Origin: Promethearchaeota archaeon
GTDB lineage: Archaea > Asgardarchaeota > Lokiarchaeia > Sigynarchaeales > MK-D1
Length of the DNA stretch: 8,057 nucleotides
Direction: 5' to 3'
Assembly: GCA_016839865.1 (NCBI GenBank)
Contig: JAEOTN010000277.1
Coordinates: forward strand, 1-8,057
The position numbers and the translations under genes were made by a program. The notes beneath the pieces are model-generated. The model was not told the DNA's origin. It saw nothing but the letters and a program-made list of their open reading frames with translations, and ran no database searches. Below are positions 1,283 through 7,429 of this stretch, in pieces. Numbering within the stretch: the first letter of the stretch is position 1; each line of letters opens with the position of its first letter.

Positions 1283-1285
1283 TTT

Positions 1286-1317
1286 CTTTCTCCAGTACTA
1301 TTGTTTTGATTTTTATA
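1286..1317 (-). promoter_or_regulatory. Putative promoter and SD for the zinc-ribbon gene
   Basis: Read on the minus strand, TATAAAAA (1310-1317) lies about 28 nt upstream of the ATG, and GGAGAAAG (1286-1293) lies 3 nt before the start. The TATA-like box is so close to the start that the leader would be very short. The SD match is convincing; the promoter call is tentative. Confidence 0.4.
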
Positions 1318-1375
1318 CAAATATTATCTAATAAATGAACTACTACACCTAAGCGATCATTGATCCACCAATCGA

Positions 1376-1437
1376 TTTTTATTTACGAGCTTCAAGCCTA
1401 CTTACACTAAACAAAGAAGATCGATTTTAGGTGATCC
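1376..1437 (+). promoter_or_regulatory. Putative promoter and strong SD for the JAMM gene
   Basis: AGGTGATCC at 1429-1437 is a nine-base complement of the conserved 3' end of 16S rRNA and sits 4 nt before the ATG at 1442, fixing that start. A T/A-rich element, TTTTTATTTA (1376-1385), lies about 57 nt upstream of the start and could be the TATA box. The sequence ATCGATTTT occurs on either side, at 1371-1379 and 1420-1428. The SD is secure; the promoter is a guess from composition. Confidence 0.5.
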
Positions 1438-1441
1438 AGAT

Positions 1442-2398
1442 ATGGGAAAAGTCATTCTAGATAAAGCAACATATAGATTAATTATTGCATCGTGTGTAAG
1501 ATTTGCAAATGCACGAATACCGGAAGATGATTGGGGAGAAATTTATGGTATCTTAATAGGTTATATAGATAAACGCAAAAACATCATTATAACAGAAGCT
1601 TTTCCCATGACTCATACCATGCAAAAACAGTACCTATTAAAAGTCAGTTACGATGATCCCGATTACGTGGATGCAGTTTTAATCGAGGAGGAAGCATATT
1701 CACGCGAACCACCCCAATTTATTGTTGGCTGGTTCCATTCTCATCCTGGTATTAAAGTCATGTTCAGTTCAGATGATATTCGAAATCAACTCGGATTCCA
1801 AACGAATAATCCACTTGCATTTGGCCTTGTATTTAACCATGTCCGATTAGTACGTCAGGTAGAGATTGCATTGCGAAAGGGAGATCCAGTAACTCCTTTG
1901 CATAATGATGTAGGATTCAAAGTATTCCGATTAAAAGATCCAAATAAAGGAACTCAAGCGTCGTATGTGGATGTCGATTTTGAGATAAAAGATGTCTCAA
2001 TAACACCTGAATTTGTTGATGAAGCAAAAAATATGGTTACGGAAGTTACAAGATTGCTTCCACCTGGAAATCTCGTAGAGTATACAAAGAAGAACATCAA
2101 CATACAAATAGCTAAAGTCAAAGAAGTCTATTCTGGAACTGAATCGTATATCAAAACTCTAGTTAAGAAAGGAGAGACATCACGAATATCAAAAGTGATT
2201 GATACGCAGCAAAGAGAAATGGAACGCTTGATAACGCCTATGAATCACGATATTAAATTATTAAGCGAATTTATGCTATATGTGGAATACAAGGAGAGGG
2301 GAGAAACCATAAACGGAATGAACCAGTTGATTAAAGACTGGGAGAATTTCGTATTGCAAATAACTACGGACTTTAATAATCTAAAAGCGCGATTTTAG
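1442..2398 (+). CDS. Rpn11-like JAMM/MPN+ zinc metalloprotease (putative deubiquitinase-like)
   Basis: JAMM proteases are zinc isopeptidases that remove ubiquitin or ubiquitin-like modifiers. The full catalytic set is present: Glu33 in GEIYGILIG, then GWFHSHPG with His99 and His101, Ser109 and Asp112, an exact H-x-H-x7-S-x2-D motif. The stretch VGWFHSHPG followed by SSDDIRNQ is closer to Rpn11/CSN5 of the proteasome lid and signalosome than to the short archaeal and bacterial JAMM enzymes. The MPN domain covers about residues 3-170. Residues about 190-318 are predicted helical and charged, with no signal or membrane segment. Total length (318 aa) is near that of Rpn11 (about 310) and roughly twice that of minimal archaeal JAMM proteins. 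It heads a same-strand run with a PhnN-like kinase 17 nt downstream, then a MoxR ATPase and a VWA protein. The substrate is not shown by the sequence; a modifier-removing role is inferred from the family. Confidence 0.9.
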   Translation: MGKVILDKATYRLIIASCVRFANARIPEDDWGEIYGILIGYIDKRKNIIITEAFPMTHTMQKQYLLKVSYDDPDYVDAVLIEEEAYSREPPQFIVGWFHSHPGIKVMFSSDDIRNQLGFQTNNPLAFGLVFNHVRLVRQVEIALRKGDPVTPLHNDVGFKVFRLKDPNKGTQASYVDVDFEIKDVSITPEFVDEAKNMVTEVTRLLPPGNLVEYTKKNINIQIAKVKEVYSGTESYIKTLVKKGETSRISKVIDTQQREMERLITPMNHDIKLLSEFMLYVEYKERGETINGMNQLIKDWENFVLQITTDFNNLKARF

Positions 2399-2404
2399 AG
2401 AGAT

Positions 2405-2409
2405 AGGTG
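2405..2409 (+). promoter_or_regulatory. SD that decides the start of the PhnN-like gene
   Basis: AGGTG lies 6 nt before the ATG at 2416. A possible GTG start at 2407 sits inside this SD and has no SD of its own, so the ATG at 2416 is preferred; this shortens the protein by three residues. Confidence 0.65.
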
Positions 2410-2415
2410 TACATA

Positions 2416-2967
2416 ATGACTAAATTATTCTTTGTTGTAGGAAATTCAGGGAGTGGTAAAGATACTTTAATTCAAGAAGTAATTGAGATGTATCCTAAGG
2501 AACTAAAATCCATCAAAATACCAGTCCGTGTGATTACACGTCCTCCTTCTCCTGAAACAGAAGATTATGAATCTATTGATGAAGAAACTTTTCTGAAATG
2601 GAAAGATGAGGGTAAATTTGCATTAACTTGGTATATCTATGGATTGCATTATGGAATTCGATCTGAAATATTAGAATGGATGTTGAATGGTCATCCTGTA
2701 ATTATTAATGTAAGTAGAAAAATAATTGAAAGTGCCCGTAAAAAGTTTGAAAGTTTGAAAGTGATATTTGTACATGTCCCATTTGAGATTACATCTGCCA
2801 GAATTAAGGAGAGGGGTCGCGAAGATGAACAGGCTATGAAAGCACGGTTGGAACGAGCACGAAAAAATCAAAATCTTCCAAGTGCGGACTTCGTTGTTGA
2901 CAATAGCGGAGACTTGAAAACAGCAGCAAAAACTATGTTAGATTATATTTTGTCGGTTTTAAAATAA
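2416..2967 (+). CDS. phnN: PhnN-like ribose 1,5-bisphosphate phosphokinase (guanylate-kinase fold)
   Basis: PhnN phosphorylates ribose 1,5-bisphosphate with ATP to give PRPP, the precursor of nucleotides, NAD and some amino acids. The 183-aa protein is of normal PhnN length. It starts with a P-loop (GNSGSGKDT, within residues 9-17), has RVITRP near 38-43 where guanylate kinases have the nucleotide-binding VSFTTR, then LTWYIYGLHYGI (about 70-81), INVSR (about 96-100), and an arginine-rich lid with RGRED near 134. The W-x3-GLxYG and RGRE patterns match E. coli PhnN better than guanylate kinase, which favours a ribose-bisphosphate substrate. PhnN usually accompanies C-P lyase genes in bacteria; none is present here. 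It follows the JAMM gene by 17 nt, so the two are probably co-transcribed. A guanylate-kinase-like enzyme with another substrate is the main alternative. Confidence 0.75.
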   Translation: MTKLFFVVGNSGSGKDTLIQEVIEMYPKELKSIKIPVRVITRPPSPETEDYESIDEETFLKWKDEGKFALTWYIYGLHYGIRSEILEWMLNGHPVIINVSRKIIESARKKFESLKVIFVHVPFEITSARIKERGREDEQAMKARLERARKNQNLPSADFVVDNSGDLKTAAKTMLDYILSVLK

Positions 2968-2998
2968 TGGATCTCCTATCTTATAAACTGCAATACAC

Positions 2999-3042
2999 TT
3001 AAATATTCGTCACACTTCTTATTTGTAGGACAAAATTTAGGT
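2999..3042 (+). promoter_or_regulatory. Putative promoter and SD for the MoxR ATPase gene
   Basis: The 84-nt gap 2968-3051 holds two AT-rich boxes, CTTATAAAC (2980-2988) and TTAAATAT (2999-3006), either of which could bind TBP, and an SD-like AGGT at 3039-3042, nine nt before the ATG. The gap suggests the MoxR-VWA pair can be transcribed apart from the JAMM-PhnN pair, though read-through is equally possible because no clear terminator is visible. Confidence 0.4.
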
Positions 3043-3051
3043 CAATTTTTT

Positions 3052-5076
3052 ATGAATAATGAAGTACTTCTTAGATCAAAGGTTTGGGAGATCCTTAATA
3101 CAATCCAAGCTAACCAATTGTACGTTCACTCATCAGTAATGAAGTTTAAGATAAATGCAGAGGGAATGGATTCAGAAAATGTTGCGATTCTCTTCCAAAA
3201 TGAAGATTTCATATCCAAGATTCGGAAATATTTTAAATCCAACAAATTAACTATCGATGAAGTGGTAACTGAGGAAGAAAAACCGGAAAAGAGATCGAAA
3301 AAGAAATCCCAGAAGAAGACAAAAAGTAAGAAAACTGCAACATTAGAGCTACCTGAAATTCTCACGATCACCATTTTAAATGCTTTGGTTCCCAATTCAG
3401 CCATGTTACTCATTGGAGGGCATGGTGGTGGTAAATCGACATTAGTAAAGCATCTAGGAAGGATGTTTACAGGGCTTTCAATGGCAGCTACTGAGGACTG
3501 CATAATTCGGGCTCACCCTCAATTAACTGAGGAAAAAATGATTGCAACTCTTAACATCGCAAAACTCTTACAATCGGGAGAGGAGGAAGTTTTATGGAGA
3601 ACTTTTACGACGTCATTTTGGAAAATTTTGGATGAAGTTAATCGTTTATCTCCCTACGCACAAAATATGCTACTTTCTATGTTAGCTGAGGGGAAGGTGA
3701 AATATTACGATAAAGTATATCCAACGGATAAATATATCTTGTACGCAACCCTAAATCCAGGAGATATTGGAACTTTTGAGATGTCTCCCCCATTTCTTGA
3801 CCGATTCTCAATTTCTGTATATATCAGTATGCCGACTACACACGATTTATCCATAATATTAGAGAGTAAAGATGATAAATTACTTGGTTATGATGAATTG
3901 GTGCAAGTGCCTGCAATTTTCACAAAAGAACAACTTCTGAGCATTTGGTTCATGGTTGATAAAGTTCAAGTAGGAAAACCTGCAGAAAATTTCATCCATT
4001 CCATTGTCCGTGAGTTTACTTTATGTGAAAGAATCGATAAAGGGAACTCTGATTATCTCACTCCTGAAACAGGATTATGTACAGGATGCCATTTCAATTT
4101 AGCAAAATTAGTATGTAACAAAGTAGTTTCCATCCTATCAGTTCGGGTAGCAAAAGATCTATTAAGGTATTCGAAAGCATTATCTTGGTTATTAGGATTT
4201 AATGATGTCCGAATCGAGACGATTTCAGCTCTTGCACCATATGTGATCTCTCATCGTGTGAAATTCGTGAATCGACAACTCAATGAGAAACCGTATTGGG
4301 GAAATAAATTCAAGTTTACAGAAGATCTGATTGAAAAAGCGAAAAAAAGGTTCATCAACAGAGAGAGAAGCTATGAGATTCTAGACAGTTTTCGAGAAGG
4401 AAATGGTACACGAGGAGATTACGACTATTTGAAGGGTTTTCAAAGTAGTGACCTTATTACGAAAATTGATTTAATTCCATTAGCTGATTCCCTTAATAAC
4501 CCAGATTATATACGAACTGTAAAATTGATTCAAAAATACCGAAACGTGCAGAATTTAGATCGATTAGTAGAAATAAACGAAATGCTTCAAACAAATTTGA
4601 CATTCCCCAATCGTGGAGAGCTGATAAACATCATCGGGAATGCTCTCAGAGAATTAACTTATTGGGCTAGAGATTTTCGATTCCAACATTGGGATGTAGT
4701 TCGATATACAATTTCGAGCAATTTTATGAGTTTCTCCAAAGCTTTGGAAGAAAGTACAAAGAGACAAAGCACGATCCAGCTCCGAGAAGCTGATTTGTTC
4801 TTGGAAATCAATGTAACGGGCGTAGAACCCAACTCTTTGGTTCAAATTAATTGTCATGGTGGACGTAAAGCTATAAATCTACGGAAAATATTGGAGGAAA
4901 CCTACCCAAAAGATGAATATGATGTCACATTATCCACAGAAGAGTTTATAAGTTCCTTAAGCCAACCCATGTCAACTCAGACTTTAGAAAATAATCCAAA
5001 ACCTCCAAAGGGAATTGGATCAAGTGATTTGGATGTAGATGATTTAGTGGATGATATTTTGAAAGATGAAGATTGA
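3052..5076 (+). CDS. MoxR-family AAA+ ATPase with cysteine cluster and acidic tail
   Basis: MoxR AAA+ ATPases form ring-shaped remodelling machines that work with VWA partners on protein complexes. Residues 1-75 are an N-terminal domain I do not recognise, followed by a Lys-rich linker (about 77-94). The AAA+ core has Walker A GGHGGGKST (Lys128, Ser129), Walker B KILDEVNR (Asp194, Glu195), sensor 1 Asn235 in TLNPGD, the DRF arginine motif at 250-252, and a sensor 2-like S-V-R at 363-365 followed by helices ending in ALAPYVISHR, as in MoxR. Between DRF and sensor 2 lies an insertion with Cys325, Cys343, Cys346, His347 and Cys355, possibly a metal site. Residues about 400-600 are helical, then a beta-rich stretch, then an 18-residue tail with nine acidic residues (657-674). 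At 674 aa it is about twice the length of a typical MoxR protein. The VWA gene starts 10 nt after its stop. Confidence 0.92.
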   Translation: MNNEVLLRSKVWEILNTIQANQLYVHSSVMKFKINAEGMDSENVAILFQNEDFISKIRKYFKSNKLTIDEVVTEEEKPEKRSKKKSQKKTKSKKTATLELPEILTITILNALVPNSAMLLIGGHGGGKSTLVKHLGRMFTGLSMAATEDCIIRAHPQLTEEKMIATLNIAKLLQSGEEEVLWRTFTTSFWKILDEVNRLSPYAQNMLLSMLAEGKVKYYDKVYPTDKYILYATLNPGDIGTFEMSPPFLDRFSISVYISMPTTHDLSIILESKDDKLLGYDELVQVPAIFTKEQLLSIWFMVDKVQVGKPAENFIHSIVREFTLCERIDKGNSDYLTPETGLCTGCHFNLAKLVCNKVVSILSVRVAKDLLRYSKALSWLLGFNDVRIETISALAPYVISHRVKFVNRQLNEKPYWGNKFKFTEDLIEKAKKRFINRERSYEILDSFREGNGTRGDYDYLKGFQSSDLITKIDLIPLADSLNNPDYIRTVKLIQKYRNVQNLDRLVEINEMLQTNLTFPNRGELINIIGNALRELTYWARDFRFQHWDVVRYTISSNFMSFSKALEESTKRQSTIQLREADLFLEINVTGVEPNSLVQINCHGGRKAINLRKILEETYPKDEYDVTLSTEEFISSLSQPMSTQTLENNPKPPKGIGSSDLDVDDLVDDILKDED

Positions 5077-5079
5077 GGT
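5075..5079 (+). promoter_or_regulatory. SD that decides the start of the VWA gene
   Basis: GAGGT overlaps the stop codon of the MoxR gene (TGA at 5074-5076) and lies 7 nt before the ATG at 5087. An in-frame ATG at 5066 would overlap the MoxR gene by 11 nt but lacks a comparable SD, so 5087 is preferred. The overlap of SD and stop suggests translational coupling. Confidence 0.6.
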
Positions 5080-5086
5080 ATATCCA

Positions 5087-7003
5087 ATGGGAGAAAGAAG
5101 AAGAGCCCCGCCTAGAATACAACCTTTACGTCGTAAGAAAAAAGGCAGAAGACGGTTCCCCCCCCGATATAGAGAAAAGCCTAAGAATCCAATGCACTAC
5201 GGTAAGGAAGCAAAATTCATCAATTACTCAGAGATTGATGATTATTTTAATGATTTATTAGACATCACCCTATCTGAGACAGATGAGAGTAATTTACTAA
5301 CTGGTAGAGATGCATGGGATAGAGCTATGCTCCATTTCCATACACCTGCAATCCCTGATCCCACTTTTGCTTTTGATAAATCTAAAATAATTGGTTTTTT
5401 CATAGAACTGGATACTTGGGCAACAACAATGAATCTATCAAACGCTCCTGATAGCTTACCAGAGCCACAGTTATTCGACTTCTACAATATTCTTGCTCTT
5501 CATGAGATTTCTCACTACATAGTATGCCCTTATGATGCGATTACAAACGCCCGTTTAATCAAAGCAACGATAAAACACATCCCAACAAGACTCAGTCCTA
5601 TAGTGGTCAATTTCTTTGCAGATCTTATTGTAGATTTCAAGTTATTTAGGAAGAAACCCAAAGAGATGGAATTCCAACTACGGGAAACATTGAAGATGAG
5701 TGATTCCGTGGGAAAATCAAAAGATGAACCAAAGCACAGCAATTTTTTTAAAGTTCTAATAAAGTGCTATGAGTTGATGTGGAATCTTAATTTTGATTTA
5801 TCAAAGGAAGAATATGAGGAAGTGACTCCTATTGCGGAAAAGATATCTGAAATAATTTTGAAGGATTTTGAGGATGAATCCCTTTGGGAGAAAAAAATAC
5901 GACGTGTAGCAAGATTATTGAAAAATATAATTGATGTAGATTTCCCACGATCTACTATAAAATTGAAAATTGAAGAATACAAAGATGTTCCAACTGCTCC
6001 AGGAGCAGAAAATGCTCAGTATCCTGTTCAAATCCCCCTTGATGTTCAAGTCATTCAAGGGAATCCACTAGAAATAAAAGTAGGTCCAAAAAATCCTCAA
6101 AACACTAATAAGAGAAAAAAAAAAGAACCTGATAATGAAGATATAAAGAGTGCTGAACAACTCGCTGAAGAGATGACTTTAGAAGAATATGTAAAGGTAA
6201 ATCAAGTAATGGGGTTTGTTCCCAAACATGATGTAATCGCAACCTATTATCGAGGATTATCAAAAAATCTGATAAAATTCAAAATTGTCGGTAAACGCCC
6301 ATCAGGCTCTATACCCATAGGAATTGAACCGTGGGTTATCGGAGACCCTATTGAAAAACTTGATATTCTTCAATCGATGTTAGTTTCCCCCAAAATCATA
6401 CCTAATATCACCACACGCAAATGGATTTATAGAGAAGGACCAGGAATCGAGATTGAGAAACGATTACCTGACATGATGATTGTAATTGACTCTTCGGGTT
6501 CAATGGATTGGACATTTGATCGTGGAAAAAAAAATAAGAGTCCCTATCATCTCGCATTAGTCGCATCGTTTGCAGCTTTGCAATATGGGATACAGAAAGG
6601 AATCAAGATCGCTGCAATCAATTTCAGCGAGAATATTTTTAAACAAAATTGGACGACCAATCCTAGATTAATTGAAAATGTGTTATTGAAATACCAAGGA
6701 GAGGGAACAGAGCTGCCTACTTATGATATTAAGAGAATGTGTCGAATAGGAGAGCGGAATTCGATGGTCTTATTAATTACTGATTTTGAGATATATAATT
6801 GGGAAATTGCATACCACGATATTTTGGAAATACTCAATATGGGAAATAAACTTGTTAGTTTCTTCATCGGAGGGCAAAAATCACTATTGAACACCCCAGA
6901 TTTCGTAGAGTTGACAAGTTTGGGAGCAGTATTCCATCCTGTAAAAAATATTCAAGATTTAGTTGGATTGGTAATCAAAGAAGTTCAAAATGTATATGGT
7001 TAA
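5087..7003 (+). CDS. VWA-domain protein with HExxH metallopeptidase-like domain (MoxR partner)
   Basis: VWA partners of MoxR ATPases bind the target complex through a metal-dependent adhesion site (MIDAS). Numbering from the ATG at 5087: the first 35 residues are strongly basic (16 Arg/Lys against 2 Glu). An HExxH motif, LHEISHYIVCP, gives His139, Glu140 and His143, followed by N-F-F-A-D-L-I-V-D (Asn175, Asp179, Asp183), a possible third ligand region. This arrangement resembles putative metallopeptidase domains joined to VWA-like domains (DUF2201-type). A charged linker with a Lys run lies near 340-365. The VWA domain begins near 460 and has an intact MIDAS: Asp468-Ser-Ser470-Gly-Ser472, Thr541 in GEGTELP, and Asp566 in LITDFE. 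No signal peptide or membrane segment is seen. An annotation from 5066 would add seven residues. Partnership with the upstream MoxR ATPase is supported by adjacency and family knowledge; peptidase activity is unproven. Confidence 0.88.
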   Translation: MGERRRAPPRIQPLRRKKKGRRRFPPRYREKPKNPMHYGKEAKFINYSEIDDYFNDLLDITLSETDESNLLTGRDAWDRAMLHFHTPAIPDPTFAFDKSKIIGFFIELDTWATTMNLSNAPDSLPEPQLFDFYNILALHEISHYIVCPYDAITNARLIKATIKHIPTRLSPIVVNFFADLIVDFKLFRKKPKEMEFQLRETLKMSDSVGKSKDEPKHSNFFKVLIKCYELMWNLNFDLSKEEYEEVTPIAEKISEIILKDFEDESLWEKKIRRVARLLKNIIDVDFPRSTIKLKIEEYKDVPTAPGAENAQYPVQIPLDVQVIQGNPLEIKVGPKNPQNTNKRKKKEPDNEDIKSAEQLAEEMTLEEYVKVNQVMGFVPKHDVIATYYRGLSKNLIKFKIVGKRPSGSIPIGIEPWVIGDPIEKLDILQSMLVSPKIIPNITTRKWIYREGPGIEIEKRLPDMMIVIDSSGSMDWTFDRGKKNKSPYHLALVASFAALQYGIQKGIKIAAINFSENIFKQNWTTNPRLIENVLLKYQGEGTELPTYDIKRMCRIGERNSMVLLITDFEIYNWEIAYHDILEILNMGNKLVSFFIGGQKSLLNTPDFVELTSLGAVFHPVKNIQDLVGLVIKEVQNVYG

Positions 7004-7045: not shown

Positions 7046-7429
7046 CTAATTATCAGAATGATTTTTCATAGCTTGTGTTATTCTCTCTGAGGCAGATACT
7101 TCTTGTTGAAAAGGCTCTGTTTTAGCTTTTAAATAGACAATTTCTAGTAAAATGAATCCAATTAGAAATCCTGTACTCACACCTAAGCCAATTATTGTGT
7201 TGATAAGGTTATTTTTCTGATAGTACAATTGAGAACGTAAGAAATCAATATAATCGGGATCTACTCCTTCTTCCTGCTGTTTATCAATAGTTCTCTCTAA
7301 GGAATTGATATTGTAAATTTTGACAACAGTTGCAGAAATACACACCAAAGTAGCACTGCTACATAAAAATAGTGCAAAAAATAGAATGGTACCATACGCA
7401 TTCCCATGCTTGCTATGATCAGATTCCAT
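7046..7429 (-). CDS. Small two-TM membrane protein, unknown function
   Basis: I do not recognise this 127-aa protein. It has two hydrophobic segments, residues about 12-36 (LFFALFLCSSATLVCISATVV region) and about 75-100 (IIGLGVSTGFLIGFILLEIVY region), joined by a charged, probably helical loop (37-74) with acidic and Gln-rich stretches. The first ten residues are hydrophilic, so segment 1 is more likely an anchor than a cleaved signal peptide. The tail after residue 101 is charged. With two segments both ends should lie on the same side of the membrane. The start at 7427-7429 follows an AGGGGA SD-like element (7434-7439). It is convergent to the VWA gene and divergent from the GTPase gene, whose upstream region it shares; a link to the GTPase is possible but not shown. 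That it is coding rests on the coherent two-TM pattern, the SD and the absence of any competing ORF. Confidence 0.7.
   Translation of the reverse strand: MESDHSKHGNAYGTILFFALFLCSSATLVCISATVVKIYNINSLERTIDKQQEEGVDPDYIDFLRSQLYYQKNNLINTIIGLGVSTGFLIGFILLEIVYLKAKTEPFQQEVSASERITQAMKNHSDN

Follow-up and report, generated by a model that had tools for sequence, protein, structure and literature searches.

Do four neighbouring archaeal genes, encoding a JAMM-type isopeptidase, a PhnN-like kinase, a MoxR-type AAA+ ATPase and a von Willebrand factor A (VWA) protein, belong to one molecular machine? The question is raised by an 8,057-nucleotide stretch of DNA from a Promethearchaeota archaeon (contig JAEOTN010000277.1; hereafter the window), in which these genes follow one another on the plus strand at positions 1442-7003. 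A first-pass annotation had read them as a possible motor-plus-isopeptidase module acting on proteins tagged with, or containing, ubiquitin-like domains. Our analysis favors, with a probability of roughly 0.6, two separately conserved units, the JAMM gene with a zinc-ribbon gene (ZnR) and the MoxR-VWA pair, that are neighbors in a single narrow Lokiarchaeal clade, where a metabolic gene separates them.

The window is Lokiarchaeal (Promethearchaeota) by similarity, and its JAMM protein matches contigs of two named Lokiarchaeota metagenome-assembled genomes, L001 (81% identity) and L002 (77%). From left to right, the window holds nadA (minus strand, cut), ZnR (minus), JAMM-PhnN-MoxR-VWA (plus), a small protein (minus) and a GTPase (plus, cut). 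Both L001 and L002 show the same order nadA-ZnR-JAMM-PhnN-MoxR-VWA, followed by an MGS-like gene and the GTPase, with the four cluster proteins 72-83% identical to those of the window. With the same genes in the same order in both relatives, the four-gene arrangement exceeds chance. The families and motifs placed by the first-pass annotation on four consecutive open reading frames were recovered, and reading frames, spacing and alignments confirmed its tightly spaced pairs and intact catalytic motifs: JAMM and PhnN are separated by 8 bases and PhnN and MoxR by 84 bases, while MoxR and VWA overlap by 11 bases.

We searched 227 Asgard genomes (the phylum of G002), one per species, with each protein and compared gene positions. 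The Lokiarchaeal label of any block or locus other than L001 and L002 was assigned by similarity. MoxR matches were kept down to an E-value of 3.4e-41 (105 of 179 genomes), weaker ones being taken as other AAA+ families. VWA was counted in 106 of 111 genomes (G055, G084, G158, G169 and G171 excluded as weak), JAMM in 65 of 80 (15 with long-frame paralogues alone excluded; G111, G120 and G126 partial but kept), PhnN in 68 of 78 (G043, G044 and G046-G053 excluded as distant) and ZnR in 65 of 80 (15 weak excluded). Second pieces of split matches were merged or omitted by hand.

MoxR occurs in 105 of the 227 genomes and VWA in 106; both are present in 101, on the same contig in 93. In 89 of these 93 genomes the two genes lie within 2 kb, in every case (89/89) on the same strand with VWA downstream, which bears out the earlier proposal that the two are partners. 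In G107, G108, G116 and G131, 3-9 kb separate MoxR and VWA, again on one strand. The JAMM gene (short family, 65/227 genomes) shares the contig of MoxR in 19 of the 57 genomes with both, and lies within 2 kb of it in two, G001 and G002, from which L001 and L002 come. The remaining 17 distances are 24-37 kb in 12 genomes (11 same-strand), 16 kb in G087, 60 kb in G107 and at least 184 kb in G108, G121 and G122. PhnN was found on the contig of JAMM in 5 of 56 genomes, within 2 kb of it in two of the five (G001, G002), and on a different contig in 51. The four-gene order is not kept outside the window's clade in the judgeable genomes of the survey. By this survey MoxR-VWA is old and widespread, and its close linkage to JAMM and PhnN is confined to the window's clade as far as observed. 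The adjacency of JAMM and MoxR-VWA in related genomes, on which the first-pass annotation had staked its module, holds in both close relatives but in no other of the 19 same-contig genomes. Some JAMM and VWA matches have longest contigs of identical length (36,608, 18,722, 543,491, 34,291 and 73,387 bases), a hint that the two genes are linked in relatives whose JAMM is 55-80% identical.

The conserved partner of JAMM is the divergent ZnR gene. Both genes are present in 59 genomes and share a contig in 57, where they are adjacent and divergent in 53, with matched stretches 164-709 bases apart; the four genomes without this arrangement are G087, G093, G095 and G097.

Ubiquitin conjugation was followed by the ubiquitin-conjugating enzyme E2 (PF00179), matched in 167 of 227 genomes. 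Among the 101 genomes with both MoxR and VWA, 61 have an E2 match and 40 do not. Nearly all of the latter (37/40) fall in G167-G173 and G180-G226, where 0 of 54 genomes match E2; since a whole 54-genome block is without a match, genome incompleteness is an unlikely cause. Conversely, 100 genomes have E2 but neither MoxR nor VWA. The MoxR-VWA pair therefore does not track ubiquitin conjugation as far as E2 shows, which speaks against a motor acting on ubiquitin-like targets. Of the 65 genomes with JAMM, 62 also match E2. The JAMM gene that adjoins E2 in G001 and G002 (E2 at G001:C131:45477 and G002:C16:94717) is, however, a different paralogue; the relatives of the window's JAMM lie elsewhere in both genomes (G001:C38, G002:C17). 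The first-pass proposal is supported in part: its families, motifs and MoxR-VWA partnership hold, JAMM-MoxR adjacency gives a divided picture (present in both close relatives, but 2/19 overall), and MoxR-VWA does not track E2.

Table 1. Positions of genes, motifs and the intergenic region in the window.
Feature	Position	Strand	Remark
ZnR zinc-ribbon protein, 188 amino acids	716..1282	-	divergent partner of JAMM
ZnR-JAMM intergenic region, 159 bases, common to both genes	1283..1441	.	
JAMM (MPN+) metallo-isopeptidase (predicted), 318 amino acids, C-terminal helical arm	1442..2398	+	JAB 3.9e-12
JAMM catalytic Glu E33	1538..1540	+	invariant, 45 sequences
JAMM motif HSHPG...S..D (H99-D112)	1736..1777	+	
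PhnN-like ribose 1,5-bisphosphate phosphokinase, 186 amino acids	2407..2967	+	TIGR02322; GTG start, in-frame ATG at 2416
MoxR-type AAA+ ATPase, 674 amino acids	3052..5076	+	AAA_5 2.2e-12
MoxR Walker A GGHGGGKS	3415..3438	+	
MoxR Walker B acidic pair D194-E195	3631..3636	+	
MoxR CxxCH...C motif (C343-C355), possible metal site	4078..4116	+	columns at least 95%, 23 sequences
VWA protein with N-terminal HExxH (zincin-like) region, 645 amino acids; 638 from ATG at 5087	5066..7003	+	
HExxH (HEISH) of VWA protein	5501..5515	+	then invariant Y144, PYD, N175, D179, D183
MIDAS (metal-ion-dependent adhesion site) DSSGSM of VWA protein	6488..6505	+	completed by T at 6707-6709, D at 6782-6784

The JAMM protein has an MPN fold and the zinc site E-Xn-H[ST]H-X7-S-XX-D, with E33, H99, H101 and D112 invariant and S109 kept in at least 90% of 45 sequences aligned out of 64 short-family matches. 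It is a predicted, active-site-complete isopeptidase of the Rpn11/BRCC36/CSN5 type. JAMM matches in G111, G114, G118, G120 and G126 contain internal stops or are cut short. ZnR consists of a conserved N-terminal region and a C-terminal CxxC...CPxCG ribbon (alignment of 18 sequences), and its matches to Pfam zinc-ribbon families are weak and below cut-off. PhnN enzymes convert ribose 1,5-bisphosphate to phosphoribosyl pyrophosphate; the window protein scores 157.7 bits against TIGR02322, barely above the curated cut-off of 156, and no phosphonate-pathway Pfam family was matched among the eight window proteins scanned. It is probably a passenger metabolic gene in the cluster. At the right end, the small minus-strand protein (7046-7429; membrane-bound by eye) occupies the place of the MGS-like gene of L001 and L002.

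In MoxR, Walker A (GGHGGGK), the acidic pair and R251, which we take from family knowledge to be the arginine finger, are kept at 95% or more in 23 sequences including the window's. In the full-length matches listed from genomes other than G001 and G002, the first 75-98 residues of MoxR (3052-3300 in the window) are not part of the aligned stretch. The VWA protein gave weak Pfam and NCBIfam matches (DUF58 at 8.4e-5, under its cut-off). Across an alignment of 117 sequences (120 were listed, and three shorter than 500 residues were excluded), its HExxH (139-143; H139, E140 and H143) and the complete MIDAS (D468, S470, S472, T541, D566) are 99-100% conserved. Fold searches with this protein were dominated by its VWA domain, which resembles Rpn10 and the MIDAS domain of Rea1, although numerous other VWA and integrin I domains score no more than 2 Z units apart from the Rpn10 match. 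A sequence search of the PDB returned nothing at an E-value of 1. The family PF13203 (DUF2201_N) was considered for the N-terminal region and rejected: it was absent from Pfam scans of the window protein at E 1, and had no match at E 0.01 in 10 of 12 genomes, including G001 and G002, the matches in G004 and G077 lying away from their MoxR-VWA loci. A phage origin of the VWA protein was likewise rejected, with no tblastn match at E 1 in 50,697 phage records and no PHROG at E 0.1. Phage matches of MoxR are partial and of low identity (8 records).

From gene content, conservation, linkage and the lack of co-occurrence with E2, we infer the following activities, complexes and clients for the two units. 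ZnR and JAMM, a divergent pair with one common intergenic region, would most likely serve to trim a ubiquitin-like tag, in a complex probably held by the long C-terminal helices of JAMM. The MoxR ring would hydrolyze ATP and act through the VWA protein to remodel a client, the MIDAS metal site may grip an acidic residue of MoxR or of the client, and the HExxH region may cut the client or bind metal. An SMC-type complex is one candidate client, because SMC is the constant neighbor of the pair in the E2-less block; from the neighborhood, a redox flavoprotein is a second candidate.

The strongest of the alternatives treats MoxR-VWA as a chaperone for cofactor or metal insertion, like NorQ-NorD or CobS-CobT, with HExxH as a metal site rather than a protease. 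MoxR shows weak matches to chelatase models (TIGR02031, 7.2e-6; TIGR02442, 7.3e-5) and carries a conserved Cys-His motif, and the VWA model matches chain G of the NorQD complex (9qhg) as well as phage CobT-like and VWFA proteins. The latter matches extend over most of its length but reach TM-scores of only 0.2-0.3. Furthermore, in 4 of 20 mapped MoxR loci (L090, L091, L092, L098), all in the E2-less block, VWA is followed on its own strand by two genes for iron-sulfur flavoproteins (DHODB_Fe-S_bind; Fer4_20 with Pyr_redox_2). Because these genes follow VWA, we raised our estimate for the chaperone role slightly; they were, however, not seen in the other 16 loci, whose neighbors are partly annotated, and the role remains doubtful in our assessment.

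A second alternative gives MoxR-VWA a role in archaea comparable to that of separase or Wapl, in which it would unload an SMC-type complex on the chromosome or process it by proteolysis. Among the 20 mapped MoxR loci (L079-L098), an SMC gene is near MoxR-VWA in 10 (L079, L086, L088, L089-L094, L098), seven of which (L089-L094, L098) also have an AAA ATPase gene next to SMC. Within G180-G226, a strong SMC match is present in 33 of the 34 MoxR genomes. In 29 of the 33 it sits on the strand opposite MoxR at a distance of 1.4-2.5 kb, and in four it is on a different contig. In the five loci mapped from this block (L089-L092, L098), MoxR-VWA faces the AAA gene and SMC head to head. Co-directional MoxR-VWA-AAA-SMC order occurs in G004 and G077, and a hinge-type SMC adjoins VWA in G087, G095 and G097, places that were added by hand from the maps to a search scoring three candidates per genome. 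On the other side, 7 of the 10 mapped Lokiarchaeal-type MoxR loci have no SMC, nor do the window and L002; the small genes beside SMC, tried as ScpA or ScpB, matched neither family; and with the block SMC on the opposite strand, a common promoter region may be the sole link. We therefore regard an unloading role as unlikely.

The neighborhood of JAMM leads in another direction. A locus frequent in other Lokiarchaeal-type genomes has the order A-B-ZnR on one strand, where A and B are two further JAMM genes, and JAMM followed by a gene termed c3 on the other. The c3 product is a 734-residue protein that combines a chelatase-type AAA+ part with a C-terminal VWA domain; it scores 584 bits with TIGR02442, whose cut-off is 779. 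Its gene directly follows JAMM in 14 of 23 loci read (L100-L111, L113, L114), at a spacing of 76-170 bases. The G002 copy shares the contig of JAMM at a distance of about 40 kb and lies on the other strand. This neighborhood speaks in part for the module reading of the first-pass annotation, as JAMM may have a tie to an AAA+-VWA protein. A role of c3 as the partner of a cobaltochelatase was considered and rejected, as CobN was unmatched in 10 of 20 genomes, five of which (G001, G002, G087, G121, G122) carry c3 relatives, the other five being outside the c3 search. Against this rejection, contig C271 of G091 carries a second c3 relative, a partial one, next to CobN, which means that a true chelatase paralogue exists as well. 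Overall, c3 need not be a cobaltochelatase subunit.

The A (about 450 residues) and B (about 490 residues) proteins, labeled by length, order and score, are encoded in tandem, with B upstream, in 54 of the 58 genomes with a strong A match (58 of 71 counted, weaker excluded). We read 55 tandems, 15 mapped first (L100, L102, L103, L105, L107-L113, L115-L118) and 40 added later (L131-L170). In the 15 mapped tandems the A-B gap is -20 to 17 bases, and the mapped tandems adjoin ZnR. The JAMM set of B is complete in 52 of 55 tandems, and the other three contain unread columns with no substitution seen. A, in turn, retains the full set in 17 of 55, and the remaining 38 are incomplete. Of these degraded proteins, 24 lack one or more of the zinc-binding His residues; 14 keep both His but lose the Glu, mostly by replacement with Gln next to a Glu at the preceding residue, which makes this the least certain class. 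The pattern is that of an active subunit and a decaying partner, as in Rpn11-Rpn8, and the two proteins are a putative heterodimer. In the window's clade we did not find the tandem: a single JAMM of this kind was matched in G002, at E 1e-12, and none of the matches came from G001.

The 2018 paper on CsRpn11 states that an arrangement of active and inactive MPN partners was not known in archaea (PMC6043591). A literature search of titles and the starts of abstracts, mostly without subscription journals, found no later report of an archaeal MPN pair. This archaeal pair of active and decaying MPN genes is the strongest new lead from our analysis, and as a candidate MPN+/MPN- pair it makes the origin of the protease pairs of the proteasome lid and the signalosome testable with Lokiarchaeal proteins. 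A broader proposal, that Lokiarchaeia hold a pre-eukaryotic lid-like deubiquitinase in which an Rpn11/Rpn8-like A-B heterodimer together with JAMM and ZnR would be served by an AAA+-VWA motor (c3 in many, MoxR-VWA in the window's clade), is in our view quite improbable. Least probable is the single module in which MoxR-VWA would pull and JAMM would cut ubiquitin-like-tagged proteins: the tight arrangement on one strand in the window, L001 and L002, the complete, Rpn11-like JAMM, the resemblance of the VWA domain to Rpn10 and Rea1, the c3 loci and the co-occurrence of JAMM with E2 speak for it, but it is very unlikely given the rarity of JAMM-MoxR adjacency, the 40 E2-less MoxR-VWA genomes, the paralogous nature of the E2-linked JAMM and the tied Rpn10 match.

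Several observations weigh against a division into two units. All four genes are close and on one strand in the window, L001 and L002, where they may be co-transcribed and act jointly. JAMM and MoxR are loosely linked beyond these, as seen in the 12 genomes at 24-37 kb and in G087 at 16 kb, and 59 of the 65 genomes with the window-type JAMM also have MoxR or VWA, a pattern that follows one clade. On the side of the proposed clients, SMC was found in only 3 of 10 Lokiarchaeal-type MoxR loci mapped, and in G087, G095 and G097 the copy adjoining VWA is not the one that best matches the SMC of the block, so that the SMC paralogues differ between the two groups. The flavoprotein genes after VWA in 4 of 20 loci fit a cofactor role equally. 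On balance, we retain two units brought together locally: the single-machine reading is corrected by telling old neighbors apart from local ones, and MoxR-VWA gains an SMC lead and a weaker iron-sulfur flavoprotein lead in place of ubiquitin.

At first pass the exact four-gene set had matched no system known to the annotation, and we did not find it in print, yet where testable it is local to one clade. Literature searches found nothing joining MoxR, a von Willebrand domain and Asgard archaea and, judged at the level of listings, nothing on a system of MoxR and JAMM and nothing on point for Asgard condensin or SMC with MoxR. Compared with known systems, the window's JAMM shares the complete JAMM set, the MPN fold and C-terminal helices with Rpn11, BRCC36, CSN5 and CsRpn11 (PMC6043591). 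Unlike the E2-linked Rpn11, the window-type JAMM is not beside E2 in its two relatives, is a paralogue of the E2-linked JAMM, and has ZnR as its conserved neighbor.

MoxR-VWA pairs are a known chaperone type (PMC7159879). The window pair has the same adjacent, same-strand genes for MoxR and a MIDAS-complete VWA protein as RavA-ViaA, NorQ-NorD, CobS-CobT and midasin, with a VWA fold like the Rea1 MIDAS domain and the NorQD chain, to which it adds the invariant N-terminal HExxH region. Its MoxR has the conserved CxxCH...C motif. Jumbo phages encode MoxR together with a vWA domain fused to an N-terminal metallopeptidase (PMC7824862), which is the same two-gene, three-domain layout as in the window. 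In a viral structure library, phage VWFA proteins were the top matches of the VWA protein, and two named metallopeptidases ranked lower. Unlike the jumbo-phage pair, the window pair is cellular, with both genes in 101 of 227 genomes, and the phage comparisons above gave no tblastn match and low TM-scores. The MoxR-VWA pair of the window is thus a cellular Asgard variant of the known MoxR/metallopeptidase-vWA kind.

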